From the NCBI GenBank assembly GCA_963575745.1, contig CAUYUJ010007447.1:422501-486500 (forward strand): a DNA stretch of 64,000 nt. The letters are read 5' to 3'. Numbering within the stretch: the stretch's first letter is position 1; the number at the start of each line of letters is the position of its first letter. The translations under genes were made by a program, and so were the position numbers. Below the pieces are notes generated by a model. That model had not been told where the DNA came from, searched no databases, and saw only the letters and a list, made by a program, of their open reading frames with translations. Below, piece by piece: positions 6,691 through 50,490 of the stretch. This stretch comes from Prorocentrum cordatum (lineage: Eukaryota > Sar > Dinophyceae > Prorocentrales > Prorocentraceae).

Positions 6691-6854
6691 GAGTCGAACA
6701 TGGCACATGTGAGTGGCACAAGCTGGAGGAACCCTGGTGGGTGGGTGGATTCGCAGATACTCATGATATGCTTCCAGTGCCAGTAGAACGCAGCAGACAC
6801 ATGTCTTGTACGTTGCCATTGTGGCCCAAGGTGTCAGGCGTTCTCCTCGAGAAC
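6691..6854 (+). repeat. element 1 split repeat A1 (left end)
   Basis: 164 bp matching 13946-14108 with one G/A substitution and a 1-bp indel (CCCAAGG here, CCCAGG in A2). It marks the 5' end of the element. It contains a spliced-leader-like sequence at 6809-6830. Confidence 0.93.
6809..6830 (+). other. spliced-leader-like sequence in A1 of element 1
   Basis: 17 of the 21 fixed positions of the dinoflagellate spliced leader match, including the run GCCATT and a CCCAAG 3' end. It ends 24 bases before the inner edge of A1 and 75 bases before the chosen gag ATG. The only indel between A1 and A2 falls at its 3' terminus. Confidence 0.45.
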
Positions 6855-6905
6855 GCAAGTGTCAGGAGCTGCCCCCCTGTCTACCTCGAACCGTCTGCAG
6901 CGCAG

Positions 6906-8285
6906 ATGGCCGAGGTAACCACCGTCGCGCTGCTCTTCGAGTGGGCCCAGCTCGACGGAGTAGCCTCAGCTTCTCTCATGGCAGCCCTTGGGCTACAGGA
7001 GAGCGACCATCCGCGGGTGCTCGCGAACGTGTCGGCTGAGGACTGGGACAGGGCCCTGGCAGCATGGCGAGTTGGGGAGGCCCCGGCAACCCCGGCTCAA
7101 AGATCCAAGGCGGTGGTGGCGAGGGGGGCTGCGGTGCCTCCACAGGCGCTGCCGGCACAGGCACCGTCGACACAGGTGCCGCCAGTGCAGACGGGCGCGG
7201 CCGCGGCGCCAGGTGCCGCCCTGGGCACCTTTGCGCTCAACACGGTGACGAATCAGGCTTCCGATGTCGTCATGAGGGTGCTCGACGGCGACGAGCTGAA
7301 GGTGGCGTACAGCAACTACAAGGTCATCTTCGGCATTCACCCTCCTCCGGAGGAGGAGCTCACGGCGGAGCAGCTCACTGCGATCAAGAAGATGCTCGAT
7401 GTTGATTTGGCCCCGTACATGGATTTCTCGGTGTGGGGCCCATTTGGGAACCGCATGGTTCGAAAGCTCAAGCTCCACGGCCATACATTCACCTCTGAGG
7501 GCACGTTCGTGCCTATCGAGGTTGCCGGCCCGCCGAGCTTCGACTTTTGGGCTCGGTCGTATCAGTGTCTGCGGACGGCGCTGATCTCCTGGAAGGCCGT
7601 CGACTTGGGCCGCCTTGACCTCTACGCCGGCATGGTGAAGCGCTACGTGACGCGCTATGGGCCCACTGTCTGGTTGCAGATCTACCAGGCGGAGGTGCGG
7701 TGCAGGAACGAGCGCATGGAGCGTGTGCGCAGACGCGGTGAAGAAGAGCGCGCAGCTGCACTTGGCGCAGGCGGCGCCCATCCCATGGACCCCATCAGGC
7801 CATGGAACTGGGTCTGGGGCGAGGTCCTCAAGGACGCGGACTTCTGGCGGGTTGAGCTGGAGGAGCCTGCTCTGTTGACCCTGAACCGGGCGATGGGCCA
7901 GGCTCCAGTCGGGGACGTGGCGGCGCCGAGCGCGCCCAAGCGCTTCCTCAACGTGGACGCGCCCGCGGCACCGCCCCAGAAGTTTGCCAAGGTGCACGAT
8001 GTGGACGGCAACGTGTTCCGGTCCAACCGGAAGGGCAAAAAGCTGTGCGAGGCCTTCAACCAGGGTTCGTGCCCTCACTCCCCGACGAGCGCGGTGTGCC
8101 CCAAGAACAGCGCGGAGGTGCACCAGTGCAGCCGGTGCCTGGAAACCACGCACGGGGAACATGCTTGCCGGAGGCAGGACTACCCTGCCCAGAAGATCCT
8201 CAAGGGCGGGGATAGCAAGGGCAAGGGAAAGGGTGGTTGGTACCAGGGCAAGGGCAAGTATCACAAGAGCCGCTGGCATTACTGA
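6906..8285 (+). CDS. gag: element 1 Gag with CCHC zinc knuckle
   Basis: Predicted nucleocapsid-type protein of 459 residues that would package element RNA. Residues about 70-110 are Ala/Pro/Gln-rich linker. The middle is a globular, Trp-containing region. The C-terminus has a CCCH-like cluster (about 381-405) followed by a retroviral-type knuckle with exact CX2CX4HX4C spacing (CSRCLETTHGEHAC), then a Gly/Lys tail rich in KGKGKGG that probably binds RNA. I chose the ATG at 6906 because it is the first after the A1 repeat that leads into the conserved part. The frame itself is open from 6519. The TGA at 8283-8285 is followed by the same frame open into pol, so a Gag-Pol fusion by readthrough is possible. 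Confidence 0.85.
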   Translation: MAEVTTVALLFEWAQLDGVASASLMAALGLQESDHPRVLANVSAEDWDRALAAWRVGEAPATPAQRSKAVVARGAAVPPQALPAQAPSTQVPPVQTGAAAAPGAALGTFALNTVTNQASDVVMRVLDGDELKVAYSNYKVIFGIHPPPEEELTAEQLTAIKKMLDVDLAPYMDFSVWGPFGNRMVRKLKLHGHTFTSEGTFVPIEVAGPPSFDFWARSYQCLRTALISWKAVDLGRLDLYAGMVKRYVTRYGPTVWLQIYQAEVRCRNERMERVRRRGEEERAAALGAGGAHPMDPIRPWNWVWGEVLKDADFWRVELEEPALLTLNRAMGQAPVGDVAAPSAPKRFLNVDAPAAPPQKFAKVHDVDGNVFRSNRKGKKLCEAFNQGSCPHSPTSAVCPKNSAEVHQCSRCLETTHGEHACRRQDYPAQKILKGGDSKGKGKGGWYQGKGKYHKSRWHY

Positions 8286-8435
8286 TCGCTGGACGGCGCG
8301 GCCGACGGCGGACCGGCAGCGGACGTTCAGAGTCACGTGAAGCAGGGTGCGGGCGTTGATGCCGCGATCTCTGCTGAGAACTCTCTGGGTGTCGAGGGCC
8401 TGGTCGGCAACGAGCCCGTCGTAGCTGAATTCAAG

Positions 8436-11348
8436 ATGCTGCACCTGTTCTCCAGGCGATGTGGGTTGCCTGGAGGTTTTGACGTGGCAGTGCGTGCATG
8501 TGGTGGCGAAGTGGACGCGGTTGGCTTGACGGCGTCGGCGGAGCTGGACTTGTGCGACGAGTACGTGTTCGAGGGTTTCCTCGGCAAGGTTAGGTCCAAG
8601 ACGTACGCCGCGGTGTTCATGACTCCGCCTAGTAGCACGTTTCGCACGCCGACTGCGACGTGCAGCGATGGGGGGCGCGGGCCGCACATGCTGCGTGGGC
8701 GCGGAACTCCTGACATTTATGGTGTTCGCGGGCTTCGTGGGCGCCATAAGGAGATGGTCCGCGCGGGTACGCTGTGTGCCTTGCGGTGCGCTGTGGTTGC
8801 CGATGCCTGCATGGAGTGCGACGTCGTGTGGCTGTGGGCACAGCCGGAGTCGTGCGGCGACGAACCTCGCATGTTCGACCTGCCCGAGGTGGCGCGGCTG
8901 CTGGAGCGCGAGGGCGTTCTCGGTACTTCCTTGGACCAGTGTGCGTATGGCAGCCCGTGCCGGAAGCCCACTACGTTCGTAGGCAACTTGCAGCTGGTGG
9001 GCCTACGCTGCAGACATGGGGCTCGGCATCATTGCGAACCGTGGTCGACTGAGAGCTTCGCTGCGTTTCCGGCGCCCCTGAATAGGTATGTGGCGGAGCA
9101 TGTCGCAGCTGCGGTTGCGCGGCGGAGGCGGCAGGGCGACGTTTCTGCACCTCGTGAGCCTGCGTGCGTCGGCCGTGGGCGCACGGAGCGCGAGCAGGTG
9201 TTGCGCGACGCGGCTCTACTGGCATTGCGCGGTGACGCGCCGCCCGAACCCGGAGACGTGACCTACGAGAATGCGCTGCGGGGTGCCCGGGTCAATCCGA
9301 AGGAGGTGCGGCAGCAGGAAGACGCTGACTGTCTCGGCGGAATGGCCCGGGCGGCAAAGGCAGTCGCCTCGCTGCCGGGCAACCTCGTCACAGGCGGCCG
9401 CGTGCGCGCAATCTTGGACGAATACTTGCACGAGAACCCGTCGGTGATCGACGAGTGTCTGGACGCGCTTGGTTCCGAGGCCCCAGACGCTGGTCCGCGC
9501 GAGGCGACGTTGGACACGTTGCGCGCGCTGATTGCGAAGCTATTCGAGGTCACGGACGTGGGAGCGACGAAGAACGAGGATTGCTCGTCGCCGATTCGGT
9601 CGTCGCTCCTTGCCGCCTGGGCTGATCGCGCCGGCGACCCGGGCCGCGAGGCGGCGAGGTGGGTTGCGTCTGGCGCTCCCGCCGGCATCTTGGCGCAGCC
9701 GTTGTTGGCGGGCGTCTTCCCTCTGGCCGATCCCGAGTCCGGCGACGTCGTGGCACCCGAGGACCTAGATGCCTCGATCGACGATTTCCGGAACTACGCC
9801 GGAATGGAGGAGGACGACGAGGTCATGGCGCAGTTGCTTGAGTACACCAGCAAGGGCTACCTGAAACGGTTCGACTCCTTTGAGGCCTGCGAGGCTTACT
9901 TGGGCGGCCCCCCCGTGCTCTCGCGTTTCGGGGTGGTGTCGAAGGTGAGGTTCGGCAAGTTGAAGCGCAGATTGATCCTCGACGTGAAGCAGTCGGGGGT
10001 GAAGCTCAGCACTCGGCGGGTGCACAGAGTCCCCCTGCCGAGGGTGACCGACGTCATGTACGACGTCCGGGACTCCATCAGCAAGCGGCCGCTTGCCGCT
10101 GACGAGGCCATCGAATTCATGGTTTTGGATTTCGTCGACGCCTTCTGGAACATCCCTCTGGCTAGGGAGGAGCGGCGCTTCTTCGTGGGGGTGATGCGAG
10201 GCGTGTACTTCGTCTTCCTTCGCGCGGCGCAGGGGTCGCGCAATGGGCCGTTAGCATGGGCCGGCGTTGCGTCCCTGGCGGTGCGCTTGGTCCAGGCCGC
10301 TCTCTGGGACAAGGGCGAGTGCAACGTGCGCATCAACACGTACGTGGACGACCCGCTGTCGATGGTGAGGGGCACGACCTCTCAGAGGAGGCAGCGCATT
10401 GCAGTCTTGATCCTCTTGTTCCGGGCATTGGGCTTTCCGCTGTCCTTTCGGAAGGGGTCTCTTGGGGCCCGCGTCGATTGGATAGGGCTGACCGTCCACG
10501 TCCAGCCAAAGGTGTTGCACGTCACGATCGCCAGGCAGCGCGTCGACGAGTTGAGGGGGCTCGTCGAGGAAGCCTTGGCGGTGAACGTCATTAGTAGGAA
10601 GTGGCTCAAGAGCTTCGCGGGTAAGGCCAGCAGCTTTGCATCGGTGTTGGTCTTCTGGAGGCCCTTCCTTCAGTTCCTGTGGTCGGCGATCTACGCGGCC
10701 CCGTCGGCGGGCGTCCCCAAGCACTGCGTCTGGGCCAAGCAGTGCGCGGTGTCGTTCAAGTGGATCAAAGCGTTCCTGGACGGCATCGAGGGCGATATGG
10801 TCCGCACGTTCGACTTGGATCTCCAGCAGGTCTGTAAGGTGAGGATTCGCATGGTGTTCGACGCCTCGCCGTGGGGTGCCGGCGGCGTGCTGCTGGAGGG
10901 GGACAAGATCGTCGCGTGGTTCGCGACGGAGTTCGGCGAGCAGGACGAGATCGCCACAGGGGTGCAGTTTGGCAGGTCCGAGTCCCAGCAGGTCGCAGAG
11001 GCACTCAGCATCCTGCTGGGGATGAGGGCGTGGGCCAACTCTTGGCTTGGGTGTTCCCCGAGGCTTGAAGTGCGTTCTGACAGTGTCACGGCGCTCTACA
11101 TGCTGGCGCGGATGAAGACGCACAGCCCTCACGTCGCCGTGATTGCCAGGGAGCTGGCCCTTGCCCTCTCGGACGCCTGCGTCAGGCCAGACGTGGTGGC
11201 GCACATCCCAGGCGTGGCGAACGGGTTGGCAGATCGTCTGAGCCGCCGCTTTCAGCCAGGCATCCGTTTCTCCCTCCCTCATGCTTTAGTCTTCGTGCCT
11301 GAGACTGTTATCCCGCCGCGGGCGCCTGGCTATTATCGTAGTGTCTGA
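8436..11348 (+). CDS. pol: element 1 Pol: methyltransferase-like, RT and RNase H
   Basis: A 970-residue replication protein. Residues 1-190 hold a cytosine-methyltransferase-like fold: LHLFSRRCGLPGGF as a motif-I-like start, TPPSSTF where GPPC would stand (Cys replaced), QPESCGDEP in place of an ENP-type motif, then LDQCAYG and KPTTF. The RT follows: LILDVKQSG, LDFVDAFWNIPL with the first catalytic Asp (about 563-575), and YVDDP (about 635). RNase H has FDASPWGAGG (about 808), a Glu in QQVAEAL (about 855), RSDSVTAL (about 880) and HIPGVANGLADRLSR (about 922). The frame is open upstream of the ATG back to the gag TGA, with GTG at 8337 the earliest alternative start. RT and RNase H motifs appear intact, so it may be functional. 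Confidence 0.9.
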   Translation: MLHLFSRRCGLPGGFDVAVRACGGEVDAVGLTASAELDLCDEYVFEGFLGKVRSKTYAAVFMTPPSSTFRTPTATCSDGGRGPHMLRGRGTPDIYGVRGLRGRHKEMVRAGTLCALRCAVVADACMECDVVWLWAQPESCGDEPRMFDLPEVARLLEREGVLGTSLDQCAYGSPCRKPTTFVGNLQLVGLRCRHGARHHCEPWSTESFAAFPAPLNRYVAEHVAAAVARRRRQGDVSAPREPACVGRGRTEREQVLRDAALLALRGDAPPEPGDVTYENALRGARVNPKEVRQQEDADCLGGMARAAKAVASLPGNLVTGGRVRAILDEYLHENPSVIDECLDALGSEAPDAGPREATLDTLRALIAKLFEVTDVGATKNEDCSSPIRSSLLAAWADRAGDPGREAARWVASGAPAGILAQPLLAGVFPLADPESGDVVAPEDLDASIDDFRNYAGMEEDDEVMAQLLEYTSKGYLKRFDSFEACEAYLGGPPVLSRFGVVSKVRFGKLKRRLILDVKQSGVKLSTRRVHRVPLPRVTDVMYDVRDSISKRPLAADEAIEFMVLDFVDAFWNIPLAREERRFFVGVMRGVYFVFLRAAQGSRNGPLAWAGVASLAVRLVQAALWDKGECNVRINTYVDDPLSMVRGTTSQRRQRIAVLILLFRALGFPLSFRKGSLGARVDWIGLTVHVQPKVLHVTIARQRVDELRGLVEEALAVNVISRKWLKSFAGKASSFASVLVFWRPFLQFLWSAIYAAPSAGVPKHCVWAKQCAVSFKWIKAFLDGIEGDMVRTFDLDLQQVCKVRIRMVFDASPWGAGGVLLEGDKIVAWFATEFGEQDEIATGVQFGRSESQQVAEALSILLGMRAWANSWLGCSPRLEVRSDSVTALYMLARMKTHSPHVAVIARELALALSDACVRPDVVAHIPGVANGLADRLSRRFQPGIRFSLPHALVFVPETVIPPRAPGYYRSV

Positions 11349-12067
11349 TCCGCGTTGCAAAGGCGTGGAGCGGGGATCAGCATGAAAATAAGTCGCGTTA
11401 AGCTGCTTAGCGCAGCGTCGGGTCGTCAGTAATTGGCGGCTCGGGCTTTTCAAAATCGGGGTGTCAAGCTGCTTGGCGCCCCGTGGGGGGGTGTTCTGGT
11501 CTGCGGGCTCTGTCGCGTCAAGCTGCTTGGCGCAGCGCCGCATCATCGGGGCATCCTGTCGGTCAGCTGTTCACGGCGTCGGGCCGCCAAGCTGCTTGGC
11601 GGTCCGTGTTCTGCTGGAAGGCTCCGGTGCGTCAAGCTGCTTGGCGCCGCGCCGCGTCGCTGGGCCGCGTGCCGGCGTGGGCTTCGCGGGGGTAGGTCGT
11701 CAAGCTGCTTGGCGACCAGTGCTTTTTGGAAAACCCCCCCCTAAGGATCCTTAGGGGGGGTTTCTCTGGTGCCACATTTTGCACTTCTCTCTGGTGTTGC
11801 CCCTCGCCGAGAGCCTTCCGGAGGGCGTCCCGGATACGAAACTCTGGGAGTTCGTATCTTCCGTGTCCGGGGCGGACGGCCTCCGGGAGGCGCGCCGGCC
11901 TCCGCAGGATTGGTCCCTGGACGTGGCTCTGGGCCAGCTTCCGAGGGTCTGAGGCCCAGTGCAACCCTCAACCGGACCAGGTCACCCGTGAAGCTGCTTG
12001 GCGGGTCGGCCTGGTCGTCGCCAGGGGGCCCGGCGTGGCGTCCGTACCGTTTTGGTTCCCGCTCAGC
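11349..12067 (+). promoter_or_regulatory. pol-YR spacer with palindrome array and hairpin
   Basis: A 719-bp non-coding spacer. It has seven copies of the core AAGCTGCTT at 11400, 11466, 11520, 11589, 11634, 11702 and 11991. Most extend to CAAGCTGCTTGGCG, in which CAAGC and GCTTG pair around one central base. A strong hairpin follows at 11731-11763. The spacer could hold signals for YR expression, recombinase binding or RNA folding. The function is inferred only from the repetition. Confidence 0.6.
11731..11763. promoter_or_regulatory. long near-perfect hairpin
   Basis: AAA, eight C and TAAGGA face TCCTTA, seven G and TTT, centred on a GGATCC site: about 16-bp arms with one unpaired C. It lies between the sixth and seventh palindromes and upstream of the likely YR start. 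Confidence 0.8.
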
Positions 12068-13726
12068 ATGCCGAAACGCAAACTGGCGCCGAGCGGCCCG
12101 CCGCGCTTGCGATGGTCCGCCGCGGAGCCCACGGTGTCGCGGGCCGCAGCTGCTGCCGGGGTCATCGGGCGTCCTTTTGATCAGCCAGTTCAGCTTCCTG
12201 GGCCTGCTCCGGGGCGCGGCGGCGGCGGTCGGAGCGTCGAGGCAGCGACGCAAGGCCGGCCAACTGATGCAAGTGGTAGCTCGCGGCACGACATGCCCAC
12301 GCTGCGGCCATCGAGTCGCGGTAACAGGGCGCTGGCACTCGCTGCGGCAGAGTCGGAGGGCTCCCGAGCGAGTGCGCTGAACGACCTCATGTCGGCCACA
12401 GTGGCCGCCTCGGCAGCTGCTCCGAGGGAGTCGCTGCTTCATACGTGGTGCTTCTTCCATGCCGCCTGGTTTGGTTCGGACATTGACGTGCTCCCGGTCA
12501 CAGTGGCCAAACTTTACGCGGTGGGGGCCATGCTGCGTGCCGGCGGCTACCGGTCTGTTGGAAATTACATTTCTCGCGTCAAGGATTGGCACCTGGAGCA
12601 CGGCTACGCGTGGACGGAGCACTTGGAGCGAGCAGAACGACAGACGAAACGGTCAGTGACGAGAGGCATTGGTCCAGCTCGGCAGTCTGCTGCATTGGAC
12701 GTTGACGTGGCATGGAGAGCTACCGCTTCTTGCTCCCCGGATCCTGTCTGCCCTGGAGGGCCCGTGGGCGCGGCGAACCTGGTAGTGGCGGGCTCATTCT
12801 GGATGCTCCGGGAGCTCGAGCTCAGCTTCGCGAAGGTCAAGCATCTGGCGGTCGACGTCGGGAAGCAGTTCGTGGACTGGACGTTGCCGACCTCGAAGAC
12901 TGATGTTCGGGGTCTGGGGAAGGTTCGTAGATGGGAGTGCATTTGCCGTGGCGACCGTCTGCGTGCATGCCCGTTTCATGCCATTCTGGACCAGCTGGCT
13001 GTCTTAGAGAGGAAGTTCGGCGGCACCGTCGACTTGCAGGAGTTGCCAGTGTTCCCTACGTTGTCCGGGGGGTGCGTTGAGAAGGAAGCGGTTGTGAAGA
13101 CCATCGAGTACGTGGCACTACGTTGCGAAGAGCGGCTGTTTGATGATCTTGGAGCTCGGCGCTTTGGAGGCCACAGCCTGCGCGTGACGGGTGCGAGACA
13201 CCTGGCTGGAATGGGGGTGAGCATAGCGCTCATCCAGTTGATGGCCCGTTGGTCGTCCGACGTCGTTCTGCGCTACGTCGCGGAGTCGCCTCTCAGAGGT
13301 CTGTCGGACGTCGTGCGACGCGGGGCCGCAGCGGCGCCCCTTGGCCACACCATCCAGGAGCTTGCCGCGCAGGTGGACACTTTGACGGAGGGCGCCGTCG
13401 CGGACAGGCGCACGTTGGTCTACTTGCGCGAAGAGCTGGAGCTTGCGAAAGCCAGGGAGGTGTCCCCGCCTGCGCCCATGGTCTCAGACACCTTCGTTCG
13501 CAACCTGGAGTCGGGCGTTGTGCATCGCCCGGCTGTGTGGTCGCGGGGCGTCGCGCCACGATGGTGGCAAGCGTGGTGTGGTTGGTCTTTTGGAAGTTCC
13601 GCCTTCGAGGAGTGCGCTTCGTTGCCGACGTGCGGCGCCGAGCTGTGCGGCGTGTGCTTCCGCAGCGAGAAGCGCGAGGCGTTGCGTGCCGAAGCGTCGG
13701 GCTCGACGGGTTCATCGTCGTCTTGA
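12068..13726 (+). CDS. element 1 tyrosine recombinase
   Basis: A 552-residue YR that would integrate the circular DNA copy. The catalytic residues can be placed: box I Arg in LRELEL (about 246), HSLRVTGAR with the His and Arg (about 368-371), RW in ARWSSDVV (about 393) and the nucleophile Tyr in LRYVAE (about 402). After the catalytic core come a coiled-coil-like segment (about 430-470) and a Cys-rich patch near the end (CASLPTCGAELCGVC). The start at 12068 (MPKRKLAPSG) is the first in-frame ATG. The frame is open further upstream into the hairpin but without an ATG. I see no disruption. Confidence 0.9.
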   Translation: MPKRKLAPSGPPRLRWSAAEPTVSRAAAAAGVIGRPFDQPVQLPGPAPGRGGGGRSVEAATQGRPTDASGSSRHDMPTLRPSSRGNRALALAAAESEGSRASALNDLMSATVAASAAAPRESLLHTWCFFHAAWFGSDIDVLPVTVAKLYAVGAMLRAGGYRSVGNYISRVKDWHLEHGYAWTEHLERAERQTKRSVTRGIGPARQSAALDVDVAWRATASCSPDPVCPGGPVGAANLVVAGSFWMLRELELSFAKVKHLAVDVGKQFVDWTLPTSKTDVRGLGKVRRWECICRGDRLRACPFHAILDQLAVLERKFGGTVDLQELPVFPTLSGGCVEKEAVVKTIEYVALRCEERLFDDLGARRFGGHSLRVTGARHLAGMGVSIALIQLMARWSSDVVLRYVAESPLRGLSDVVRRGAAAAPLGHTIQELAAQVDTLTEGAVADRRTLVYLREELELAKAREVSPPAPMVSDTFVRNLESGVVHRPAVWSRGVAPRWWQAWCGWSFGSSAFEECASLPTCGAELCGVCFRSEKREALRAEASGSTGSSSS

Positions 13727-13837
13727 GTGCCCGAAGGTTCCTCCCGAGGCTTCCACATCACAGCCTCGAAGGTCGGTGGGTGTCTTTCGATGGCCGCTCG
13801 TAAGCCCTGCCCAGCACGGTATCGCTGTTGAGTTAAT

Positions 13838-13945
13838 GCGGAGGCGTTGCGGCCAGCAGCGACGCAACTCAGCAGCGATGACAAAAATGATGTTCATCTT
13901 TGCCTGTGCTGGGTGGGTGGGGCGGTTGTTCCGACACAGCTTGTG
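13838..13945 (+). repeat. element 1 split repeat B1
   Basis: 108 bp identical to 14137-14244. It directly abuts A2, forming the circle-junction-like B1/A2 boundary. Confidence 0.93.
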
Positions 13946-14108
13946 GAGTCGAACATGGCACATGTGAGTGGCACAAGCTGGAGGAACCCTGGTGGGTGGG
14001 TGGATTCGCAGATACTCATGATATGCTTCCAGTGCCAGTAGAACGCAGCAAACACATGTCTTGTACGTTGCCATTGTGGCCCAGGTGTCAGGCGTTCTCC
14101 TCGAGAAC
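13946..14108 (+). repeat. element 1 split repeat A2
   Basis: 163 bp copy of A1. It is separated from B2 by a 28-bp unique spacer (14109-14136). Confidence 0.93.
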
Positions 14109-14136
14109 CTCCCGCCCGCCCTGCATTTTTCCAAAG

Positions 14137-14244
14137 GCGGAGGCGTTGCGGCCAGCAGCGACGCAACTCAGCAGCGATGACAAAAATGATGTTCATCTTT
14201 GCCTGTGCTGGGTGGGTGGGGCGGTTGTTCCGACACAGCTTGTG
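14137..14244 (+). repeat. element 1 split repeat B2 (right end)
   Basis: 108 bp identical to B1. It marks the 3' end of the element, and host repeat resumes at 14245. Confidence 0.93.
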
Positions 14245-14560
14245 AGATTGTGAAAACGGCCCGTCTTCCATCTTTGAAGCTGTTGCAAACTTTCCAGACG
14301 AATGTGCGCGGTGCTAAGGCGAAAACCACATTGTGAAGAGGAGCCGCCCCCCATCCTTGCAGCTGTTGCTTGCAAGACGAACGTGCGCGACGCTAAGGCG
14401 AGAACAACACGTTCAAAACGGCCCGCCCCCCGTCTTCGAAACGATTGCAGACTTGAAGACGACTGTGCGCGGCGCTCGGCGAGAGCCACCTTTTGAAAAC
14501 CACCCGCCCTCCATCAGCGAAGCGTTTGTATTTTTCAAGGTCCAGCATCATAGCTGGTGA
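14245..14560 (+). repeat. tandem repeat of about 75 bp, right side of element 1
   Basis: Four diverged units of the form GTGCGCGGYGCTAAGGCGAAAACC...GAAAACGGCCCGCCYYCCATC...TTGCARAC. The same family appears in reverse orientation at 24880-25160, where GTGGTTTTCGCCTTAGCACC is the exact reverse complement of part of a unit here. Confidence 0.8.
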
Positions 14561-14790: not shown

Positions 14791-15229
14791 CCCTACCCAG
14801 CAAAGCCTTGCGACAGGGGCGCCCTCCGGCGCCGGCGGGGCCCGTCGCCCCCGCCGAGGTCCCTGGAGGTGGGCCCCTCCGGCGAGGTCGCGCGGACGGA
14901 GCCGGGGCCTGGCGCGAGCAGCGAGGCAGAGCGGCCACAACTGGGGGTCAGGGGCAACGACAGGGGGGGATTCAGTCAGCCCGCAGGGGGGGATCCAAGT
15001 GGGGCTGTGGGCCTGGTTGCCATGTATCTGCCCTGGGAGGAGGAGAGTGCCCCCGCAACGTATCGAAGGGCAGGGCGGGAGGCTTGCAAGCTGGGGTGCA
15101 CATTCCGTGCCATGTGGGGAGGCGCATGTCCAACCCTGGGTTTCCAAAGCGGGGCTAGGCGTTGTTCCCGAATTCGGTTTCTCCTTCGCTTTCTTCCTTG
15201 AAGGTTCGGAGGTTGATAGACCTGCTACC
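14791..15229. other. no recognised gene
   Basis: GC-rich sequence with frames open in several phases after the purine tract. No domain recognised. Confidence 0.4.
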
Positions 15230-15356
15230 CTGACACGTCGGTTGGCGAATTTGCCCTTTCCGATTCGCCAGAGGGCGTCGCGGCCGTCATTTTTGGGGAT
15301 CCAGGTCCGTCGGTTTCGGTCCTAGGCCGTTTTCGCTAAAGGGAGGTTTGTCCACT
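15230..15356 (+). repeat. dispersed repeat family B, copy 1
   Basis: CCTGACACGTCGGTTGGCGA, then GAGGGCGTCGCGGCCGTCAT, CCAGGTCCGTCGGTTTCG and GGGAGGTTTGTCCAC. Recurs at 42033-42178 and 52370-52500. Confidence 0.8.
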
Positions 15357-15583
15357 GCCGAGATGAGCAGCTTTCCCAAGGGTGCCCTTGCATCCTTGCC
15401 TCCTCGGCCCATCCTTGACCGCTTTCGCTGGCCACGCCCCGCCCGCAAGATGTCGACAGGGCCTTCCAATGCCCTTGCAGCCTCATCGTGCGCCCTTATC
15501 ATGCGGGTTGAGTGTAGGGGGGATAGACTCGGGGGATGCATCGATTCCCAATCGCCCATCCATCGCCGCCAGAGGGGCCCCGT

Positions 15584-16411: not shown

Positions 16412-16473
16412 GGCCCCGGGACCGTCAAACAGCGGCTCGGGGTGGAGGGGTCCAGACCTCTGGGGGGGGCCCA

Positions 16474-40481: not shown

Positions 40482-40636
40482 GTGGGAGCTGGTGTGCTAC
40501 TTCCGACTGACAGCGCCTCGTGTGCACTGGGCTGGCGTGGCCCACCTCCTCCCTCCTCACCTCCACATGGCCCTCGGCACCTGTGCGGACCTCGGTCCGC
40601 GGGGCGGGTCGCGCTCCCCGCGCGAGTCGCCCCCTC

Positions 40637-41924: not shown

Positions 41925-42030
41925 CTCCCTTGATATTCCCCAGAACTCTGCTGGCGTGCGTTCTGACCAGGATTTCGAGGCGAATCCAGCGGTGGCGACG
42001 AGGGCCGCCCAGGAGGCCCACAGAGGGGAG
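41925..42030 (-). repeat. dispersed repeat family A, copy 2 (reverse)
   Basis: Reverse complement of family A: CTGACCAGGATTTCGAGGCG, AATCCAGCGGTGGCGACGAG, GGCCGCCCAGGAGGCC. It lies next to a forward family B copy. Confidence 0.85.
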
Positions 42031-42032
42031 AA

Positions 42033-42178
42033 CACACGTCGATTAAGGAATTGGCCGTTTTCGGTTCGCGAGAGGGCGCCGCGGCCGTCATTTTTGCGGG
42101 TCCAGGTCCGTCGGTTTCGGTCCTCGGCCGTTTTCGCTAGGGAGAGGTTTACTAAAGGGAGGTTTGTCCACCGCCGAT
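42033..42178 (+). repeat. dispersed repeat family B, copy 2
   Basis: ATTGGCCGTTTTCGGTTCGC, GCGGCCGTCATTTTTGCGGG, CCAGGTCCGTCGGTTTCGGT and AAAGGGAGGTTTGTCCACCG. Confidence 0.85.
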
Positions 42179-43084: not shown

Positions 43085-43320
43085 GCAATTTTGGGCCTCT
43101 TGGGAGGCCCTCGTCGCCTGGGCTGGATTCTCTAGGAAGTTCTGGTCAATACGCACCCCGTGAGAGGGAGCAGCGGTATTGGTACCTTGCTGCCTCGGGA
43201 GATCGCGCCGCATCGCCGATGCGGCTCGATGTTGATCCCGATTTTTCTCCGCGCCGACGGTGCCGATGCATCGGCGACGTATTGGCGATGTGTTGGCGAT
43301 GCGGCGCGATCCTGCGACTC
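43085..43320 (+). repeat. family A copy 3 followed by GGCGATG palindromes
   Basis: CTTGGGAGGCCCTCGTCGCC, GGCTGGATTC, TTCTGGTCAATACGCACCCC to about 43190. Then ATCGCCGATGCGGCTCGATG and GCCGATGCATCGGCGACGTA-type short palindromic words related to those at 15620 and 50680. Confidence 0.8.
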
Positions 43321-44033
43321 CATCTGCTCGGCACCCATTTGGGACGCCTCCGGTGACGTAACAGGGTCCTCGTTTTCTCGTGGGCTCCGAGGGGGGGGCG
43401 CTCCTGGGGGTCCCAGGGCCGAACTAGGACAGGAACGGTGCAGGATGAGGCCTGGTCGGAAGCCCCGAGGCCCAGCTTCAGACGAAGCACTACGAATGAG
43501 GCCCCAGCCTCATTCGTAGTATTCTGTCGGAATCAGTGCCTCTTAATGTTTTGTAGTGATGTGCGCTTTCCAGCCGGTCACATGCCCGGGGCTACGGCTC
43601 CCACCCGCGGCGCTCTCGTTGGCGACTTGCAGGTCCGATGTTCCGATGTTCCGATGCTTTCGCTTGATTTGAAAGCGTTGGCTGTCCAGAACATCACGTC
43701 TTGTGCCTAGCGAAGCTCTGGCCTGGAGCACATACACACGGTCTGACCTTCAGTACTCCGATCTCCCCGCCTGTTCTTTTGACAGCGCACCGCCAGGCGA
43801 TGCTGGCGTGGTGATCGGTGGAGCGACTGATGGCACAAAACGGGGATCCGGGATCCGTTTCTATCGTGCTCATGCCCAGGGGAAACGATAGGGGGGATAT
43901 GCATAGAGAAGGGGGCGCATCGACCCCCAACCTCCCATTGATCGCCGATAGGGTTGTGGAAGTGGATTAATGGAGAGGAAGCGTGCTGCCAAATAATTTC
44001 CAGATGTCTAAAACATGTGTCAAGCATGTTTTG
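43321..44033. other. no recognised gene; hairpin next to element 3
   Basis: No gene. CACTACGAATGAGGC and GCCTCATTCGTAGTATT form an inverted repeat (43490-43525). At 44010-44032, immediately left of element 3, AAAACATG and CATGTTTT form a perfect 8-bp stem around TGTCAAG. Confidence 0.6.
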
Positions 44034-44174
44034 AATAGATAGAGCTTGCTGGATAGTTTTCGGAATGCCAGGTTTCTCATCCAGCCTCGTCTCGACGTCC
44101 GTGCTCCTGGAATGGGCTGCCTTTGATGTCTTGCCAGCCTCCCTTTCAGGATTCACGCTCGTAACTATTCTGGC
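44034..44174 (+). repeat. element 3 split repeat A1 (left end)
   Basis: 141 bp identical to 50135-50275. Identity with A2 stops inside a spliced-leader-like sequence (44158-44179). Confidence 0.93.
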
Positions 44175-45987
44175 TCAAGATCGCCTGGCGGCGATCGGAA
44201 CGGGCGCCACGGCGAGCCACTCCCAGGTCGCAGTGTGCGCGCGATCAGCCCTCCTCGCTGGCTCGGGGGCGCTGCTCTGGAGCCAGGTAGCCTGGCACCT
44301 GGCGAGCTGGGCTGCTGGGCGCTTCGGGCCTGAGGCGGCTCGGGTGCTGACCGTCGCGGGGGCGCGAGGCGTCGCCGCGCTGGGCGAGGCCGCCCACACT
44401 GCCTCTTGCTGGGGCTGGCGCGCTCTGCAGGCGGCAGCGACCTTCGCGAGCTCTCTGCTTGCTCTCGCTTGGGAGCATCGCAGCTGGCTGGCACGGGGAG
44501 CCCGAGCCGCCTGGTCGCGTGGCCGCGCGGCGCTGGGGGCCGCCTGGGCTCTGGGCGCGCAGGCCGTCGGAGGGCTCCGTGGCTGGAGGGCGGCCCGTCG
44601 GGCCGACCGCGCACGCGCTCGCGAGCTCGCAGCCGCTTCAACCGCTCTCGAGTACGCCTTGGTGGAGATGGCGCTTGCAGGTGGCGTAGCCGTCGGGGCG
44701 GCGGACCCGTGCTGGGTGCTGCTTTCCCGCGGCGGCGAGTGGGACGAGGTCCTGATCTTCGGGCAGGTGCGGGGCGCGGACTACAGCCTGGGCTTGACGA
44801 CGGACGCGACGGGGGTCGCGTTCGTCTGGGTGCTGGTGCGCCTGCTGCCGGGGCATTTTCGCGCTGTGGTCGTGCCTGGAGGGGGAGGCCTCCGCATGCC
44901 GCCGTTCGGCGTTCCTGGTGCCCAGGTCAACTGGGTGTGCGAGCCGCCGCACGCCGCGGTCCAGTGGGACCCGAGTGTGGCCGAGCTGGCCGCGCTGCGC
45001 TTGGAGGCCCAGGGCGTGGACGCGGCCCTGCAGACCTTCGTGCTGGCGCCGGGGGCGATCTTCGATGCGGGCTCGCAGGCGGCGACGATCCCCGCCTTCA
45101 TGCCCGTGGGGGGCCCTCTACCACCTGCAGGGGGCGGAGCCGTCGTGCCAGCAGCAGCGGGAGCCGCGGGAGCCGCAGCGGCGCCCCCGCCCGCGGGCGC
45201 GGTTGCGCTACCCGCCGCGGGCGCGGCGGGGCCCGCGGCTGCCGCGGGTCTGGGCTTCGGCGCCGTGGGAGCGCCCGACGGGGCGGCAGCCGCCCCCGCA
45301 GCGGGCATCGATCTGGCGTCACTGCTTCAGGAGGTCCGCGCGATCCAGGGCCAGCTGCAGGATGGGGGCGGCTTGAGCAGCAAGCGAGAGAAGAAAGACA
45401 AGAAGTCTGCCACCAAGAAGAAGAAGAAGAAGAAGAAGAAGAAAAAGAAGAAGAAGAGGTCCGACTCCAGCGGCTCGACAAGCTCGAGCGACAGCAGCTC
45501 CTCCAGCAGCAGCGACTACCTGCGGTGGCGCGGGCCCAAGGCCAAGAGCCGTCGGGTCGACCCCGCCCAGGAGCGCAAGTTGGAGACCGAGAAGTTCAAG
45601 GCCAAGGGCGACCTCCTGGCGTTCGCGGCGAAGCACCCGGGAGCGCTCTCGGGGTACTTCCTGGCGATGGTGCACCGCAAGCTGAGCCACGGGCGCTTGA
45701 CGGAGACCAAGCAGCTGAGGCGCGCGTCGGTGACGACGTGGGCGCAGGCACACTCGGGCCTGACCGAGCTGCGGGACCAGCGCGAGGTGCAGACGTTGGC
45801 GCTCGTCATGGACTTGATCAACGCGCAGGACCTGGCGACCGCGATGGACGTGCTGGCGCAGCGCATCATCGCGATCCAGCGGGCGAAGGCCAAGGGCGGC
45901 TCCTGGGAGAAGGCCGAGGCCGCGGAGCTGCTGGCTGGCACGGGGGGCGGGGTCGCTGCAGGCGGCCTCTTGAAGCTCACCATGTGA
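44065..45987 (+). CDS. gag: element 3 Gag
   Basis: A 640-residue frame. The N-terminal third is Ala/Leu/Trp-rich and hydrophobic. The middle (about 200-340) is globular, with a Pro/Ala/Gly-rich stretch after it (about 350-420). Then comes a run of 14 Lys (about 451-464) and a Ser-rich block, a likely RNA-binding or nuclear-targeting region, and a helical C-terminal domain (about 500-640; LLAFAAKHPGALSGYFLAMV). No zinc knuckle is visible, unlike elements 1 and 2. The ATG at 44065 lies inside A1. If translation begins after the spliced-leader-like site, the next in-frame ATG is 44668. Stop TGA at 45985. Confidence 0.8.
   Translation: MPGFSSSLVSTSVLLEWAAFDVLPASLSGFTLVTILAQDRLAAIGTGATASHSQVAVCARSALLAGSGALLWSQVAWHLASWAAGRFGPEAARVLTVAGARGVAALGEAAHTASCWGWRALQAAATFASSLLALAWEHRSWLARGARAAWSRGRAALGAAWALGAQAVGGLRGWRAARRADRARARELAAASTALEYALVEMALAGGVAVGAADPCWVLLSRGGEWDEVLIFGQVRGADYSLGLTTDATGVAFVWVLVRLLPGHFRAVVVPGGGGLRMPPFGVPGAQVNWVCEPPHAAVQWDPSVAELAALRLEAQGVDAALQTFVLAPGAIFDAGSQAATIPAFMPVGGPLPPAGGGAVVPAAAGAAGAAAAPPPAGAVALPAAGAAGPAAAAGLGFGAVGAPDGAAAAPAAGIDLASLLQEVRAIQGQLQDGGGLSSKREKKDKKSATKKKKKKKKKKKKKKRSDSSGSTSSSDSSSSSSSDYLRWRGPKAKSRRVDPAQERKLETEKFKAKGDLLAFAAKHPGALSGYFLAMVHRKLSHGRLTETKQLRRASVTTWAQAHSGLTELRDQREVQTLALVMDLINAQDLATAMDVLAQRIIAIQRAKAKGGSWEKAEAAELLAGTGGGVAAGGLLKLTM
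44158..44179 (+). other. spliced-leader-like sequence at the A1 inner edge of element 3
   Basis: 17 of the 21 fixed positions of the dinoflagellate leader match, ending in the exact GGCTCAAG. All four mismatches are transitions. The A1/A2 identity ends five bases before its 3' end: A2 continues CCTGC instead of TCAAG. Confidence 0.45.
45942..45948 (+). promoter_or_regulatory. candidate -1 frameshift site G GGG GGC
   Basis: In the gag frame ACG GGG GGC GGG, this heptamer has the canonical X XXY YYZ phase. Slipping back one base enters the pol frame 37 bases before the gag stop. I did not resolve a downstream pseudoknot. Confidence 0.5.
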
Positions 45988-48900
45988 CGAGGTGGCGGAG
46001 GGCGCGGCAGAGGTGGCTGCGCCGCGGAGGCCAGGAGTGCACGTTGGTTTCCGTCTTGGTCGGTCTGGGCGACTGGCTGAGCTTCGCTGGAGGGCCGCTG
46101 GGGCTGCCACTACGCCGTGGGCACCTCGTTCGGCCGCGTGTCGTGGAGTTCGGGAAGGCCTCGCCAGGCATCTTCCCAGTCCCTTTGCTGCGGCGTGGTG
46201 ACGCTGAGCTCGCAAAGTTCGGGCGGCAGTACCGGGGCGCAATTTTGATTTGGGCGAACATGTGCATCGTCGCGCTCAACGATCTGTACGACGGAGACGG
46301 CGACTACACCATGTTGCCGACGCAAGCCCAGCGTCGTGTGCAAAGGCGCATGCTGATGGGCGTCTCCCGCTTCCTCGCGGCCGAGTTGGCTTGGCCAGAG
46401 GCGGCGACAATTCAAGAGGTCCTGCGTCACTCCGACGGCTACGAGCCGTCCAGGTGCGTCGCGGAGCCCCTCGGCGAGCGTGGCGGAGTGCCAGACCGCG
46501 CCGCCGTCGTCGACCTGGCTGGGCTGCTGGACGAGCACTTTCCTGGGCTTGCTCATCAGGTGCGCTGCCCTCGATCGCTGCTCCTTAGCGTGGATCGGCG
46601 GCCCGCCAGGCTCAAGAGGCCTCACACGCTGGTGGGGCCCACTTACCCCAGTCTCGTGGCGCGCAACGTGGCGGCGGGCCTGCAGGGGTACGGCTCCAAG
46701 AAGAGGGTGCGCAAGCATCGTGGGGTTGCTCTCGTGGCTGGGGCTTTCGGCGTGAAGAAGTCAGACACGGAGCAGCGGGTGATCTCGGACTTGCCAGTGA
46801 ACCAGCTGCTCAACCCTGATGCCCTCCCTCGGCCGACCTTCGCGTACCCGCCGCGGCTCCGTGTGGTGAAGACGCTGCCAGGCATGCGGGTCAAGCTGTG
46901 GAAGCGGGACCTGCGCCACTACTTTCACCAGCTGGCGATCGGCAAAGCCTGGCGGAAGTACATGGCCCATCCACCCGTGCCTGACCCGCGCGGGGGGAAG
47001 GGGAAGGTGTTCCCGTTCCACCACGCGACGCCGATGGGCTTCGCGCCGTCGGCGGGCTGGGCACAGGCGGCTTCCGACACCGCTTTCCTGAAGGCAGGGC
47101 TACCCCAGGAGCGCAGGGTGACGTTTGACCAGCCCTGCCCCACCGAGCTGCCGCTCTGGGGGTCCATCATTGACGACCTCTGGGCGTTGGACGCGCGCTC
47201 TGCAGGCGACCGCGCGCGGAGCCAGGCCGACTTCTGGATGACCAAGGCCGAGCGCGCCTGGGACCGCTTGGGAGTTCCTGTGCATCACGGCAAGTCCGTG
47301 GACGGCGGCAGCGGCGAGTTCCAGGGCACCGAGGTCCACCCCACGGAGCACTGGCTGGGTACCACTCGCCGCCGCCGCGTGGACCTCTTCGCAGCCACCC
47401 TCGCTCTTCTGGGCCAGCAGCTGGTCTACCGCAAGGACGTGGAGCGCTTGGTCGGGAAGCACGGTTTCTGCCAGAGTTATCGGCCTTGCTTGCGGTCTAA
47501 CTTTTCTCAGGTCTATTCCTGGCTGGAGCGCCTACCCTTGCAGGGGCGCAAGCCCGTGGCGTGGTGCCCGTTGGCGTGGCATGAGGTGCTGATGTCGGCT
47601 ATCCTGCTGCCGTTCGCAGAGCAGGACCTGGATGCGGACTGGTGCCCGCGCGTGGAGTGCACGGACGCCGCGCCAGGAGGGCATGGCCGCGCCTGGGCGA
47701 CGCTGCCGCTGGAGTCGGTGCAGCACATCGCCAGGTGGGCTGACCATCGGGCGCCCTACACCATGCTCGGCGACGGCTTCGGGGTTGACGTGGACGTCGA
47801 GGGGCGCTGCAGCCTGGCCCGTGTTACGCTGCCGCCAGTGGGCCACTGGTTCAAGGTGGGCAGGCCAGCCGGCTATCAGCACATCACGCTTGAGGAGGCG
47901 CACGCGAAGCTCTGGGGCATGGGGGCCCGTCTGCATCGGCCCTCTGAGTTGGGGAAGCGAGTACTGCATGCTGGAGACAACGCCCCGTGCGAGGGCGCCT
48001 TCATCAAGGGACGCAGTGCCAGCCGCAGGCTCAACCGACGCTGCCGCCGTGGGGCGGCTATCGAGCTCGCGGGCGGGTTCTCGCACTTCCACTTCTGGAT
48101 CTCGACAGGCAAGAACCCCGCCGACGAGCCCAGCAGCTGGCACGGGTCACGCCAGGCGCGTGGCGGCAGGCGCAAGCCGCCTCAGCCGCTGCCCCGCCAG
48201 GAGGTGATCCCGCTGGCGCCAGCAGGGTGGGCATCTCGCGAGAAGCTCTTCCTGCACTTCTGCTCTGGGCCCAGGCGCGAGGGCGACCTGTGCGAGATGG
48301 TCGAGTGGGAGGCGCGCGGGGCTGGCCTGGTGGTGAAGGCGCTGGCCTACGACCCCATGGTCGACCCTGCCCATGACTTGGCGTCGCCTGTGCTGGTGCG
48401 CGAGCTGAGGGGGCTGTGCAGCAGCGGCGACGTGATGGGCTCCTTCGCGGGGCCGCCTTGCTCGACCGTCAGTCGCGCCAGGCATCACGCCCTGGGCGGC
48501 CGCCGCGGCCCGCGCCCTCTACGCTCTCGGGACCAGCCGCTCTTGCCCTTGCCTGAACTATCAGAGTCCGAGCGCCAGGCTTGTGCGCTGGGAACGCATC
48601 TCTTCCTCCTCTGCCTCGAGCTCTTCACCAGAGTCCATATCAGAGGGGGCTGGGCAGGACAGGAGCATCCTCAGGATCCAGGTCGTCATCCTTTCCCGTC
48701 CTTCTGGGTTGCTCAGGAGGTGGTGGAGTGGATCTCAGAGTTCGGTTTGTACGTGGTCTCGTTCGATCAGTGTCGGCATGGATCGTTATCTCAGAAGCCC
48801 ACGTCCGTTGTCACCAATGACGCCAGGGCCGCCGCGGTCTTGGGACTTCGCTGCAATCATCGACACCGTCACAAGGGCGTGTACGGCCTGGCCCCGAAGG

Positions 48901-49118
48901 GAGGTTTCGTCACCGCTCAGTTGGCGCGTTACCCTCCGCAGCTGTGTCAGGCTCTGGCTCGCTTGGCGGTCAACGCGCTCGTCGCCCATCAGCAGCACCT
49001 CAGCCATGGCCGACGATCCTGGCAGGCGCCGTGGGCGCATCATTACCTTCTTGATGAGCGCGCTGAAGCCAGTGACGACCGACAGGTACGCCGCCGCACT
49101 GTGCGATTTCAGCTGTGA
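45949..49118 (+). CDS. pol: element 3 Pol: RT, RNase H, methyltransferase-like
   Basis: About 1,056 codons in the -1 frame relative to gag, with no ATG in the first 300 bases, so a Gag-Pol frameshift product is likely. RT: VISDLPVNQLLN, WKRDLRHYFHQLAIG with the first Asp (nt 46906-46950), PMGFAPSAGW (nt 47032) and SIIDDLWALD (nt 47162). RNase H: ECTDAAPGGHGR (nt 47656), LEEAHAKLWG (nt 47890), HAGDNAPCEGAF (nt 47970), NPADEPSSW (nt 48115). Methyltransferase-like: LFLHFCSGPRREG (nt 48247), GSFAGPPCSTVSRARH with a complete GPPC (nt 48437), QEHPQDP (nt 48660), FDQCRHGSLSQKPTSVVTN (nt 48763). The same frame is open upstream over gag as far as 44406, but that part is a shadow of gag. Confidence 0.88.
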
Positions 49119-49938
49119 CCTGGAGGCGCTGGGCTACAGCATCCACGAACTCACTGAGGAAGAGCTCGATTGGTTCCTGGCCGAACGAGTGGTGGATATG
49201 TTCGAGGAGTCTGGCGGGGTGGATGGGCTTGGGACTGCCTCAACCCTGCTGGCCGCCTTCGCGAAGGCGAATCCTCGGCACCACTACCGCACGGCCTGGA
49301 AGGCGCTGGACGTCTGGCGCACCCGCAGACCGCCTCTGCAGGCTCCCGCCTTACCAGCGGTGCTGGCGCTGGGCATCGTGAACTGGCTCGTGCTGGCCGG
49401 AGAGTGTGGCTGCGCCGCCGCCGTGCTACTGTGCTTCACTGGGTTGCTGCGAGCGTCCGAGGCGCTCTCCTTAGACGGCGCGACCTAGATCAGGACCGTG
49501 ACAGGGTACGTCGCGCTGCTCGGCCGCACCAAGAGAGGGGCAGAGCAGAAGGTCCTGTTCGAGGAGCCGTCCACCGTGACCTGGCTGGATCACTACATGC
49601 TGCGCTTTCCCGCTAGAGCAGGGCAGCGAGTGTGCCCCATCTCGTACCCGCGGCTCCAGCGGTGGCTTCAGAAGGCCGCCAACGCGCTGGGCTTCGGGGC
49701 TGTTCACTGGACGTCTCATGGGCTGCGCCGTGGGGGAGCCACGGAGCTGCTGTCACGGGGCGTGCCGCTAGCGGACATCATGCTTTTCGGTCGCTGGCTC
49801 TCAGAGAGGTCTGCTCGTGAGTATCTCCGGCGCGGGGAAGTGAGTCTCACTCGTTTGCGTGTTGACATTGCCAAGTCGTCATGGTCTCTTGCCTACAGGT
49901 ACTGTGCAGTTGGAGCCCAAGTTTGGGCTGTAGTCTGA
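49006..49938 (+). pseudogene. element 3 tyrosine recombinase with one in-frame TAG
   Basis: 310 sense and nonsense codons from the ATG at 49006, overlapping the end of pol by 113 bp. The N-terminal core-binding part is present (LKPVTTDRYAAALCDF). Box I Arg lies in GLLRASEAL (codons 149-157). A TAG at 49486-49488 (codon 161) then interrupts, and the same frame resumes with GRTKRGAEQKV (Lys region), TSHGLRRGGATELL (His and Arg), FGRWLSERSAREYLR (Arg and Tyr) and a TGA at 49936. All catalytic residues therefore exist, but the protein would be cut after box I unless the TAG is read through. Because the repeats of this element are nearly identical, the stop must be recent, a read error, or functional. 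Confidence 0.85.
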
Positions 49939-49998
49939 GTTTCAGTCAGTTTCTTCTTCTCCGATTGTTGTTTCGTAGCTTTCGCTGGATAGGGGAAG

Positions 49999-50137
49999 GT
50001 GGCGAGGCATTGGCCTGCGCAGGCCAGCTTGGTGCGATCGTGATCGCACTCCACCTTTGGAACATATTCTGGTACGCTTCGCGTGCGCCATCCCCTGTGA
50101 AGGGTCGGAGTGGTGGTTGTAGGTGACGTTCTGAAAT
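49999..50137 (+). repeat. element 3 split repeat B1
   Basis: 139 bp, two substitutions from 50352-50490. Confidence 0.93.
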
Positions 50138-50275
50138 AGATAGAGCTTGCTGGATAGTTTTCGGAATGCCAGGTTTCTCATCCAGCCTCGTCTCGACGTC
50201 CGTGCTCCTGGAATGGGCTGCCTTTGATGTCTTGCCAGCCTCCCTTTCAGGATTCACGCTCGTAACTATTCTGGC
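50135..50275 (+). repeat. element 3 split repeat A2
   Basis: 141 bp identical to A1, so it also carries the first 37 codons of the gag frame. A 76-bp spacer separates it from B2. Confidence 0.93.
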
Positions 50276-50351
50276 CCTGCTGCGCTCCCACCCACCCGTG
50301 GTGGTCACCAACAACAGTGTGGAGTGCGCGGGGCCTTGCACTGCTCCTTGA

Positions 50352-50490
50352 GTGGCGAGGCATTGGCCTACGCAGGCCAGCTTGGTGCGATCGTGATCGC
50401 ACTCCACCTTTGGAAAATATTCTGGTACGCTTCGCGTGCGCCATCCCCTGTGAAGGGTCGGAGTGGTGGTTGTAGGTGACGTTCTGAAAT
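50352..50490 (+). repeat. element 3 split repeat B2 (right end)
   Basis: 139 bp copy of B1 ending GTTCTGAAAT. Host sequence starts ATCTAAAATCATG. Confidence 0.93.

Follow-up and report, generated by a model that had tools for sequence, protein, structure and literature searches.

Retrotransposons that encode a tyrosine recombinase (YR) are described as rare (PMC4157794) and as small, DIRS1-like elements measuring 3,974-6,283 bp in a 2011 overview (n = 28; PMC3266345). DIRS1 integrates as a circle that the YR recombines at a short core, the target not being duplicated (PMC3266345); the Ngaro elements of Cafeteria extend over ~6 kb (PMC8547959). In dinoflagellates, the SymbioDIRS-Dnmt3 elements of Symbiodinium (de Mendoza 2018) combine A-coding-B-A-B repeats with reverse transcriptase (RT), YR and Dnmt3, have two domain orders and possess a divergent RT (PMC5890265). 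Here, a stretch of 64,000 nucleotides from the dinoflagellate Prorocentrum cordatum (contig CAUYUJ010007447.1, positions 422,501 to 486,500; termed the window) was analyzed, for which an original prediction had described three complete, unrelated elements of this kind. They are referred to as E1 (6691-14244, plus strand, 7.55 kb), E2 (26542-40772, minus strand, 14.23 kb) and E3 (44034-50491, plus strand, 6.46 kb). It is very probable that all three are YR retrotransposons with split direct repeats, integrated as circles by the recombinase.

Split direct repeats, copies and insertion sites

Local alignments and coding motifs place the parts of each element in the order A1-genes-B1-A2-B2, with the internal block downstream of the YR, so that all three predicted layouts were found in full (Table 1). 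Identity between paired repeats ranged from 98.6 to 100%, and the proposed check by pairwise alignment upheld the layout. In E1, A1 and A2 share 162 identical positions with 1 mismatch and 1 gap, and the B repeats are identical (108/108). Both pairs of E2 are identical (136/136 for A, 221/221 for B), and those of E3 agree at 141/141 positions for A and 138/140 for B. B1 and A2 adjoin in E1 (0 bp) and overlap by 1 bp in E2 and by 4 bp in E3. The predicted repeat lengths (164/163 and 108, 136 and 221, 141 and 139 bp) were reproduced in all but one case, the B repeat of E3 being 140 bp long rather than 139.

The genome sequence searched comprises 4,128,499,153 bases in 21,875 contigs; the published assembly is given as 4.15 Gb in 22,724 scaffolds with 59.7% GC (PMC10666404). 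A search for further copies, also proposed beforehand, located copies of E1, E2 and E3 at other loci. The A repeat of E1 gave 19 matches. Five reach 99-100%: the window and C17654, a second copy with both ends, contain two each, and the fifth lies in C1291, a locus that has only A, spacer and B2, identical to the A2-spacer-B2 of the window at 298/299 positions. This solo A-spacer-B is the counterpart of a solo long terminal repeat (LTR). For E3 (40 of 110 candidates scored), 36 rows make up 18 pairs with a spacing of 6.08-6.10 kb. The corresponding E2 search, with 40 scored out of 190, yielded 18 rows that make up 9 pairs with a spacing of 13.8-14.0 kb (the window pair is included in both cases); the other rows comprise 3 pairs spaced 2.3, 16.5 and 29.0 kb, and 16 single repeats. 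At C4259, the A repeats of an E2 pair lie 29 kb apart with unrelated sequence where coding sequence is expected (L084, G000:C4259:24200-25100), and the pair represents either two elements or a nested insertion.

In the pairs compared (8 of E3, 7 of E2), at most one mismatch separates A1 from A2, and 0-3 separate B1 from B2. Since the paired repeats are nearly unchanged, recent movement is suggested. The predicted recent activity is borne out by these low mismatch counts and by the empty sites described below; the accompanying claim that YR elements are a major genome component is not. In its near-identical A repeat, E1 is represented by two copies with both ends and one solo remnant. If all 1,417 E2-type RT candidates (see below) measured 16 kb, they would occupy ~0.5% of 4.1 Gb, a figure of arithmetic rather than measurement.

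It can be observed that the flanks differ among copies and that the ends are shared by copies at other loci. Across 12 E3 and 8 E2 copies, the sequence of the inner B1|A2 joint does not change, whereas the outermost bases depend on the site. The outer limits of those copies with readable ends correspond to this joint. At an E2 site (C14633), 5 empty relatives of 93-97% identity display exact continuity, with one C at the joint. For an E3 site (C14789), the two empty relatives, C17090 (94%) and C8335 (88%), carry one AT, compared with AT at both ends when filled. At the window E3 site, 33 of the 40 listed rows, from 3,820 candidates, span the joint; among the 7 read, 3 have AATA and the rest near variants. 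The host sequence there (43960-44070, 50480-50560) is itself repetitive: palindrome-like and dispersed, it has many genomic relatives and may represent a small non-autonomous element. In C2938, E2 lies within a tandem repeat, the adjacent unit of which is unbroken. For E2 and E3, no duplication beyond a core of 0-4 bp was found at empty sites. The window copy of E1 borders on a 79-bp minisatellite. Its joined site aligns to a later unit with a score of 43, and 200 shuffles reached no more than 24. That comparison is suggestive only, pointing to insertion without target duplication.

Precise empty sites with a 0-4 bp core fit YR recombination of a circle. By analogy with the DIRS, PAT and Ngaro literature, the element RNA would be copied into cDNA, and the internal B1-A2 block, as a fused right and left end, would be the template that restores the ends and joins them into a circle. 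Recombination between the circle's B|A joint and the chromosome, carried out by the YR, would then insert the element, leaving the target uncopied.

Simple repeats at insertion sites

Insertion into simple repeats has precedents: TATE sits in telomeric hexamer repeats (PMC6681497), and YR-encoding nimaviruses of crustaceans insert into (TAACC)n (PMC10871703). At 13 of 26 E2 sites, at least three CCT/AGG-type units are located within 30 bp on a flank read; the same is true of 3.6% of positions in the window (binomial tail 9e-13). For E3, a tract of (TA)5 or longer starts within the first 24 nt of 11 of 18 right flanks, the corresponding value being <0.1% both in the window and in a 107-kb sample. 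The E2 and E3 copies of the window stand outside these counts. Dropped from the E2 count were the duplicate loci C21111 and C13967 together with C13700 (B2 incomplete) and C17661 (N), and C4259 and C6758 enter as two sites each; dropped from the E3 count were C471 (flanks as in C18478), C8903 and C1559 (no B2 end found). Targets of this type, if true, would account for the spread of such large elements at little cost.

A possible, though somewhat doubtful, alternative is that the microsatellite link is a by-product, the repeats having grown after insertion or insertions elsewhere having been purged, with the YR needing just 0-4 bp. The TA tracts of E3 are mostly one-sided, and post-insertion growth of (TA)n is therefore a live candidate. 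Empty sites outside microsatellites were found for both E2 and E3, and CCT/AGG repeats are abundant in the window, as this explanation would have it. It accords less well with the three left-positive E2 pairs with both flanks read (C19341, C14844, C18656), which have CCT/AGG on both sides; in C17222 and C4348, also E2, the motif is present on the right side only. Moreover, the motif differs between the E2 and E3 families, and (TA)5 or more begins within 24 nt of <0.1% of sampled positions.

Coding content and the methyltransferase-like domain

The prediction that each element encodes RT, RNase H and YR is well supported for E1 and E3, in both of which the RT and RNase H of a YR retrotransposon (DIRS order) were found; for E2, the RT-RNase H assignment draws on motifs and weak profile matches. 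The RT of E1 has a Pfam RVT_1 match (E 7.7e-6) that, at 26.2 bits, falls short of the 29.6-bit cut-off; 17 homologues were found, with 2 of the 17 protein relatives named P. cordatum (32-38% identity). The E1 homologue P0001 matches Pfam RVT_3 above the cut-off, and a sequence search of solved structures with E1 returned HIV-2 RT (E 0.0035). The gag label of the first E1 open reading frame (ORF) was assigned by position and motif, Pfam giving no match. The E1 YR matches Phage_integrase below the cut-off (E 0.026) and resembles the YR of E2 (E 8e-4) and of E3 (E 0.005-0.007). In E3, the gag-like ORF is similar to the N-terminal region of the Durusdinium trenchii protein P0031 (54% over 145 residues), and pol has 30 matching proteins, Durusdinium and Cladocopium entries among them. 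The Pfam scan of E3 returned no match for RT, RNase H or YR, and the sequence search of solved structures gave no RT-like match, the best being a TATA-box-binding protein (E 0.01). An AlphaFold model of E3 pol (predicted local distance difference test, pLDDT, 81.7) has a retroviral RT as its best Foldseek match (E 2e-11), with template-modelling (TM) scores by target of 0.36-0.52 against retroviral RT-RNase H in the 50 rows listed. R...HxxR...Y motifs of tyrosine recombinases are present in all three elements, with a Pfam match in E1 only, and the YR C-termini are alike pairwise (E 4e-5 to 0.007). No DDE integrase was named by Pfam in the ORFs scanned.

As regards completeness, the word holds for the repeat layout; the coding frames of the window copies are damaged in two elements. 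A stop at 49486-49488 interrupts the YR frame of E3, which is open in 10 of the 12 copies read (window copy included). The long frame of E2 is split into two overlapping ORFs and is continuous there in 3 of 5 readable close copies, a count that leaves out the non-homologous L084.

The motifs LVDDG, D...D...N-AD and R...HSLR...Y are present in E2. With relatives added, its RT-RNase H aligned with that of E1 in hhalign colinearly over 429 columns (probability 22, E 0.00096) and with that of E3 at a probability of 4.2 (E 0.0099); other alignments gave 13 (E 0.0021). E1 and E3, each independently supported, matched one another no better (2.9, E 0.016), and reversed or column-shuffled controls (n = 5) reached E 0.15 or more over at most 40 columns. 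The RT-RNase H regions of the three elements are so diverged that weak profile matches alone connect them. With less than certainty, then, E2 is taken from its sequence to encode an RT-RNase H. Its YR is 31% identical to P0018 (E 5e-36), the one protein relative of E2b among 7,980 candidates scored, and sequence comparison of E2 with solved structures gave no match. In viral contigs, the E2b pattern had no match, and 74 stretches fit the pattern of the E3 alignment, 0 of which were confirmed.

Searching the genome with the RT region of P0018 yielded 1,417 first-look candidates of the E2 type. Of the 85 that were scored, at 27-30% identity, 9 lie within open frames of 4,550-6,309 codons. One giant relative, C18527, measures 16.4 kb, with A1 at 22150-22309, A2 at 38062-38221 (159/160 identical) and two identical 204-bp B repeats. 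Its frame aligns with the E2 ORFs in four segments that extend through RT, RNase H and YR (26-42% identity), and the 2163-residue E2 ORF, the C-terminus of which is the methyltransferase-like domain, is 32% identical to this frame over 1143 columns. E2-type elements measure 14-16 kb, and some relatives contain a single open frame of ~5,000 codons. The giant frame of C18527 (L077/L078) continues for ~270 residues beyond the YR, with hydrophobic segments there. Hydropathy marks candidate membrane segments in E2-type N-termini; this evidence is weak because the same scan flags segments of RNase H and YR.

One homologous domain was found in all three elements, before the RT in E1 and E2 (in E2 at the end of the first ORF) and after the RNase H in E3. 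BLASTP connects E1 with E3 (E 5e-8), E2 with E3 (3e-5) and E1 with E2 (2e-4). In hhalign, the E1 and E3 profiles match at a probability of 99.9 (E 6e-35; 99.7 and E 1.8e-25 in a separate run), and two E2-type sequences match the E3 and the E1 domain at 97.3 (E 2e-11 each); a single-sequence test with the C18527 domain gave 12.0 (E 0.0025). Pfam was blind to the E3 domain even at E 10: PF00145 had no match there or in the ORFs scanned, and no other Pfam methyltransferase matched in those ORFs. For a model of the E3 domain (pLDDT 84.9), Foldseek matched DNMT1, ZMET2, MET1 and M.HaeIII (E 1e-4 to 1e-3), the first 38 rows all being C5 methyltransferases with TM-scores by query length of 0.32-0.43. 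The E3 domain is thus predicted, from this model, to share the C5 cytosine methyltransferase fold distantly. Against the DNA methyltransferase (DNMT) of P0046/P0048, which stand in by inference for the Dnmt3 type, no similarity was detectable (hhalign E 0.047, probability 1.1). A second such domain, read by eye after the E2 RNase H (look-alikes near 31337-31387 and 30965-31003), gained no support, hhalign giving E 0.4-0.6 against the DNMT, E3, E1 and first E2 domains.

The domain would probably aid the transposition cycle, through modification or binding of cDNA. Motif IV in E3 reads PPCST at 48453, and the Cys of PPC is invariant in 17 aligned E3-type sequences; in 12 E3 copies, the ratio of nonsynonymous to synonymous polymorphism (pN/pS) is 0.02 over the part of the domain covered (48639-48999) and 0.2 in the YR, values that come from 66 non-independent pairs. 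Together with retention of the domain in three lineages at different positions, this makes it unlikely that the domain is a decaying, functionless relic, an idea to which the failure of Pfam to recognize it and the variable motif-IV Cys of E1-type sequences (PPSST, with Ser, in the window E1 copy; likewise lost in P0010) lend some weight. Given a strongly constrained methyltransferase-fold domain that is invisible to Pfam, elements recorded as DNMT-free may contain a DNMT after all, which bears on why such domains persist in dinoflagellate retroelements.

Several observations weigh against the interpretation of E1-E3 as circle-integrated YR retrotransposons with selected targets. The circle, the RNA and transposition are read here from DNA alone. 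Pfam found no RT, RNase H or YR in E2, the single E2 sequence matched the E1 profile unconvincingly (probability 0.7, E 0.081), and the hhalign probabilities of 22, 4.2 and 13 are low; because of these last values, our confidence is held at high rather than near complete. The empty-site query returned no row for the E1 site among the 40 matches listed. Among the copies, C13700 and C18240 have an incomplete B2, that of C16440 is truncated where the contig ends, and no B2 was found in the stretches examined of C8903 and C1559. With respect to target sites, the backgrounds consist of one 64-kb window and the 107-kb sample, and the (TA)n of E3 lies mostly on the right side only, (TA)4 or more being present on the left in 1 of the 9 TA-flanked copies with a left flank read. 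That the repeats are assembly duplications, or that ordinary LTR or inverted-repeat elements were misread, is scarcely credible even for a hybrid assembly of a repeat-rich genome (PMC10666404) with gaps (N) adjoining some copies, since the A-repeat searches match elsewhere in the genome, where the same layout recurs with different flanks and precise empty sites, YR motifs are encoded and Pfam named no DDE integrase in the ORFs scanned; both outcomes had been named in advance as refutations, and both are contradicted.

Outside the elements, minisatellites with units of 79, 139, 73 and 110 bp lie between E1 and E2 (14253-14431, 16027-16443, 18644-19849 and 21029-21249). Two dispersed repeats each occur at three places, 15206-15360, 42007-42161 and 52348-52502 for one and 16734-16837, 43092-43195 and 51543-51646 for the other, with copies 67-81% alike. 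An 83-bp direct repeat (63158-63240 and 63918-64000, 99% alike) reaches the window end and might belong to a further element. Scans for tRNA and with Rfam were empty, and the Pfam matches of ten other window ORFs all fell below the cut-off (best DUF745, E 8.6e-4, 61410-62330).

Table 1. Repeats and coding regions of E1, E2 and E3, in window coordinates and listed in the sense of each element.
Feature	Position	Strand	Evidence or landmarks
E1 repeat A1 (left end)	6691-6854	+	same left end in copies C17654, C1291
E1 gag-like ORF	6855-8285 (frame open from 6498)	+	Cys/His cluster near 8046-8072
E1 methyltransferase-like domain, upstream of RT	8421-9047 (approximate)	+	profile match to E3 domain
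E1 RT	9753-10565 (approximate)	+	YVDD at 10341-10352
E1 RNase H	10833-11255 (approximate)	+	D859, E905, D932 invariant in alignment
E1 tyrosine recombinase ORF	11696-13726	+	HSLR at 13172, Tyr in 13247-13279
E1 repeat B1	13838-13945	+	local alignment
E1 repeat A2	13946-14108	+	local alignment
E1 repeat B2 (right end)	14137-14244	+	local alignment; solo A-spacer-B at C1291
E2 repeat A1 (left end of minus-strand element)	40637-40772	-	local alignment, copies
E2 ORF, 2163 aa	33769-40260	-	hydrophobic segment 39721-39777; CCCH-like Cys/His motif 36163-36225 (by eye)
E2 methyltransferase-like domain, upstream of RT	33931-34773 (approximate)	-	BLASTP, hhalign
E2 ORF, 2148 aa	27536-33982	-	putative RT LVDDG 32900-32914, putative RNase H ~31913-32320, YR 27608-28606
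E2 repeat B1	26972-27192	-	local alignment
E2 repeat A2	26837-26972	-	local alignment
E2 repeat B2 (right end)	26542-26762	-	local alignment, copies
E3 repeat A1 (left end)	44034-44174	+	local alignment; 18 left ends compared
E3 gag-like ORF	44175-45987 (frame open from 44035)	+	similarity to P0031
E3 pol	46131-49118	+	RT (IDDLW 47169-47183), RNase H 47658-48134, methyltransferase-like domain 48219-49001
E3 tyrosine recombinase region	49006-49950 (start approximate)	+	LLRASEA 49444, HGLRRGG 49717, GRW...Y 49789-49824
E3 repeat B1	49999-50138	+	local alignment
E3 repeat A2	50135-50275	+	local alignment
E3 repeat B2 (right end)	50352-50491	+	local alignment, copies

Comparison with known systems

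The presence of split-direct-repeat YR retrotransposons in a dinoflagellate host is supported by the present analysis. Describing their lineages as unrelated goes too far, since E1, E2 and E3 have in common a similar YR C-terminus as well as the homologous methyltransferase-like domain. In the literature searched, which included few subscription journals, no microsatellite-targeting YR retrotransposon appeared among the matches listed except for the telomeric repeats of TATE, and E2-sized YR elements and the shared cryptic domain were likewise unreported among those matches. Elements that exceed DIRS1-like ones more than twofold in length, have copies at many loci and show precise empty sites allow the proposed circle integration to be tested by sequence. 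It is tentatively proposed, as a serious possibility, that dinoflagellate YR retrotransposons may constitute a diverse superfamily of their own, characterized by a cryptic C5-methyltransferase-fold domain that has changed place within the polyprotein, giant elements with a single polyprotein of ~5,000 residues and possible membrane segments, and lineage-specific microsatellite landing sites.

The architecture of E1-E3 is already known in kind, since SymbioDIRS-Dnmt3 of dinoflagellates has been published. The two share the dinoflagellate host, the repeat layout, RT-RNase H, YR and a cytosine-methyltransferase domain in Pol in two orders. They differ in that the domain of SymbioDIRS-Dnmt3 is of the Dnmt3 type and detected by Pfam, whereas that of E1-E3 is missed by Pfam and has no detectable similarity to the stand-in DNMT; a Dnmt3-type DNMT was found in none of the three (Pfam PF00145, hhalign E 0.047). 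Split direct repeats are also a property of the PAT-like elements of the DIRS group (Pat1, Toc, Kangaroo). The DIRS group likewise includes a methyltransferase domain (PMC4157794), and the order RT-RNase H-methyltransferase of E3 is that of DIRS1 pol (PMC3266345). However, the methyltransferase of that group is reported as Dam-like, of the N6-adenine type (PMC5890265), whereas the modelled E3 domain is predicted to have a C5-type fold. Endogenous nimaviruses of crustaceans resemble E1-E3 in YR-linked insertion into simple repeats, but they are large DNA viruses, and their (AT)n-inserting members use a DDE transposase (PMC10871703). With Ngaro and VIPER/TATE, the elements share split direct repeats and internal repeats downstream of the YR (PMC4157794, PMC6681497, PMC8547959); Ngaro and VIPER are without a methyltransferase domain (PMC4157794), in contrast to E1, E2 and E3, all three of which possess the methyltransferase-like domain.

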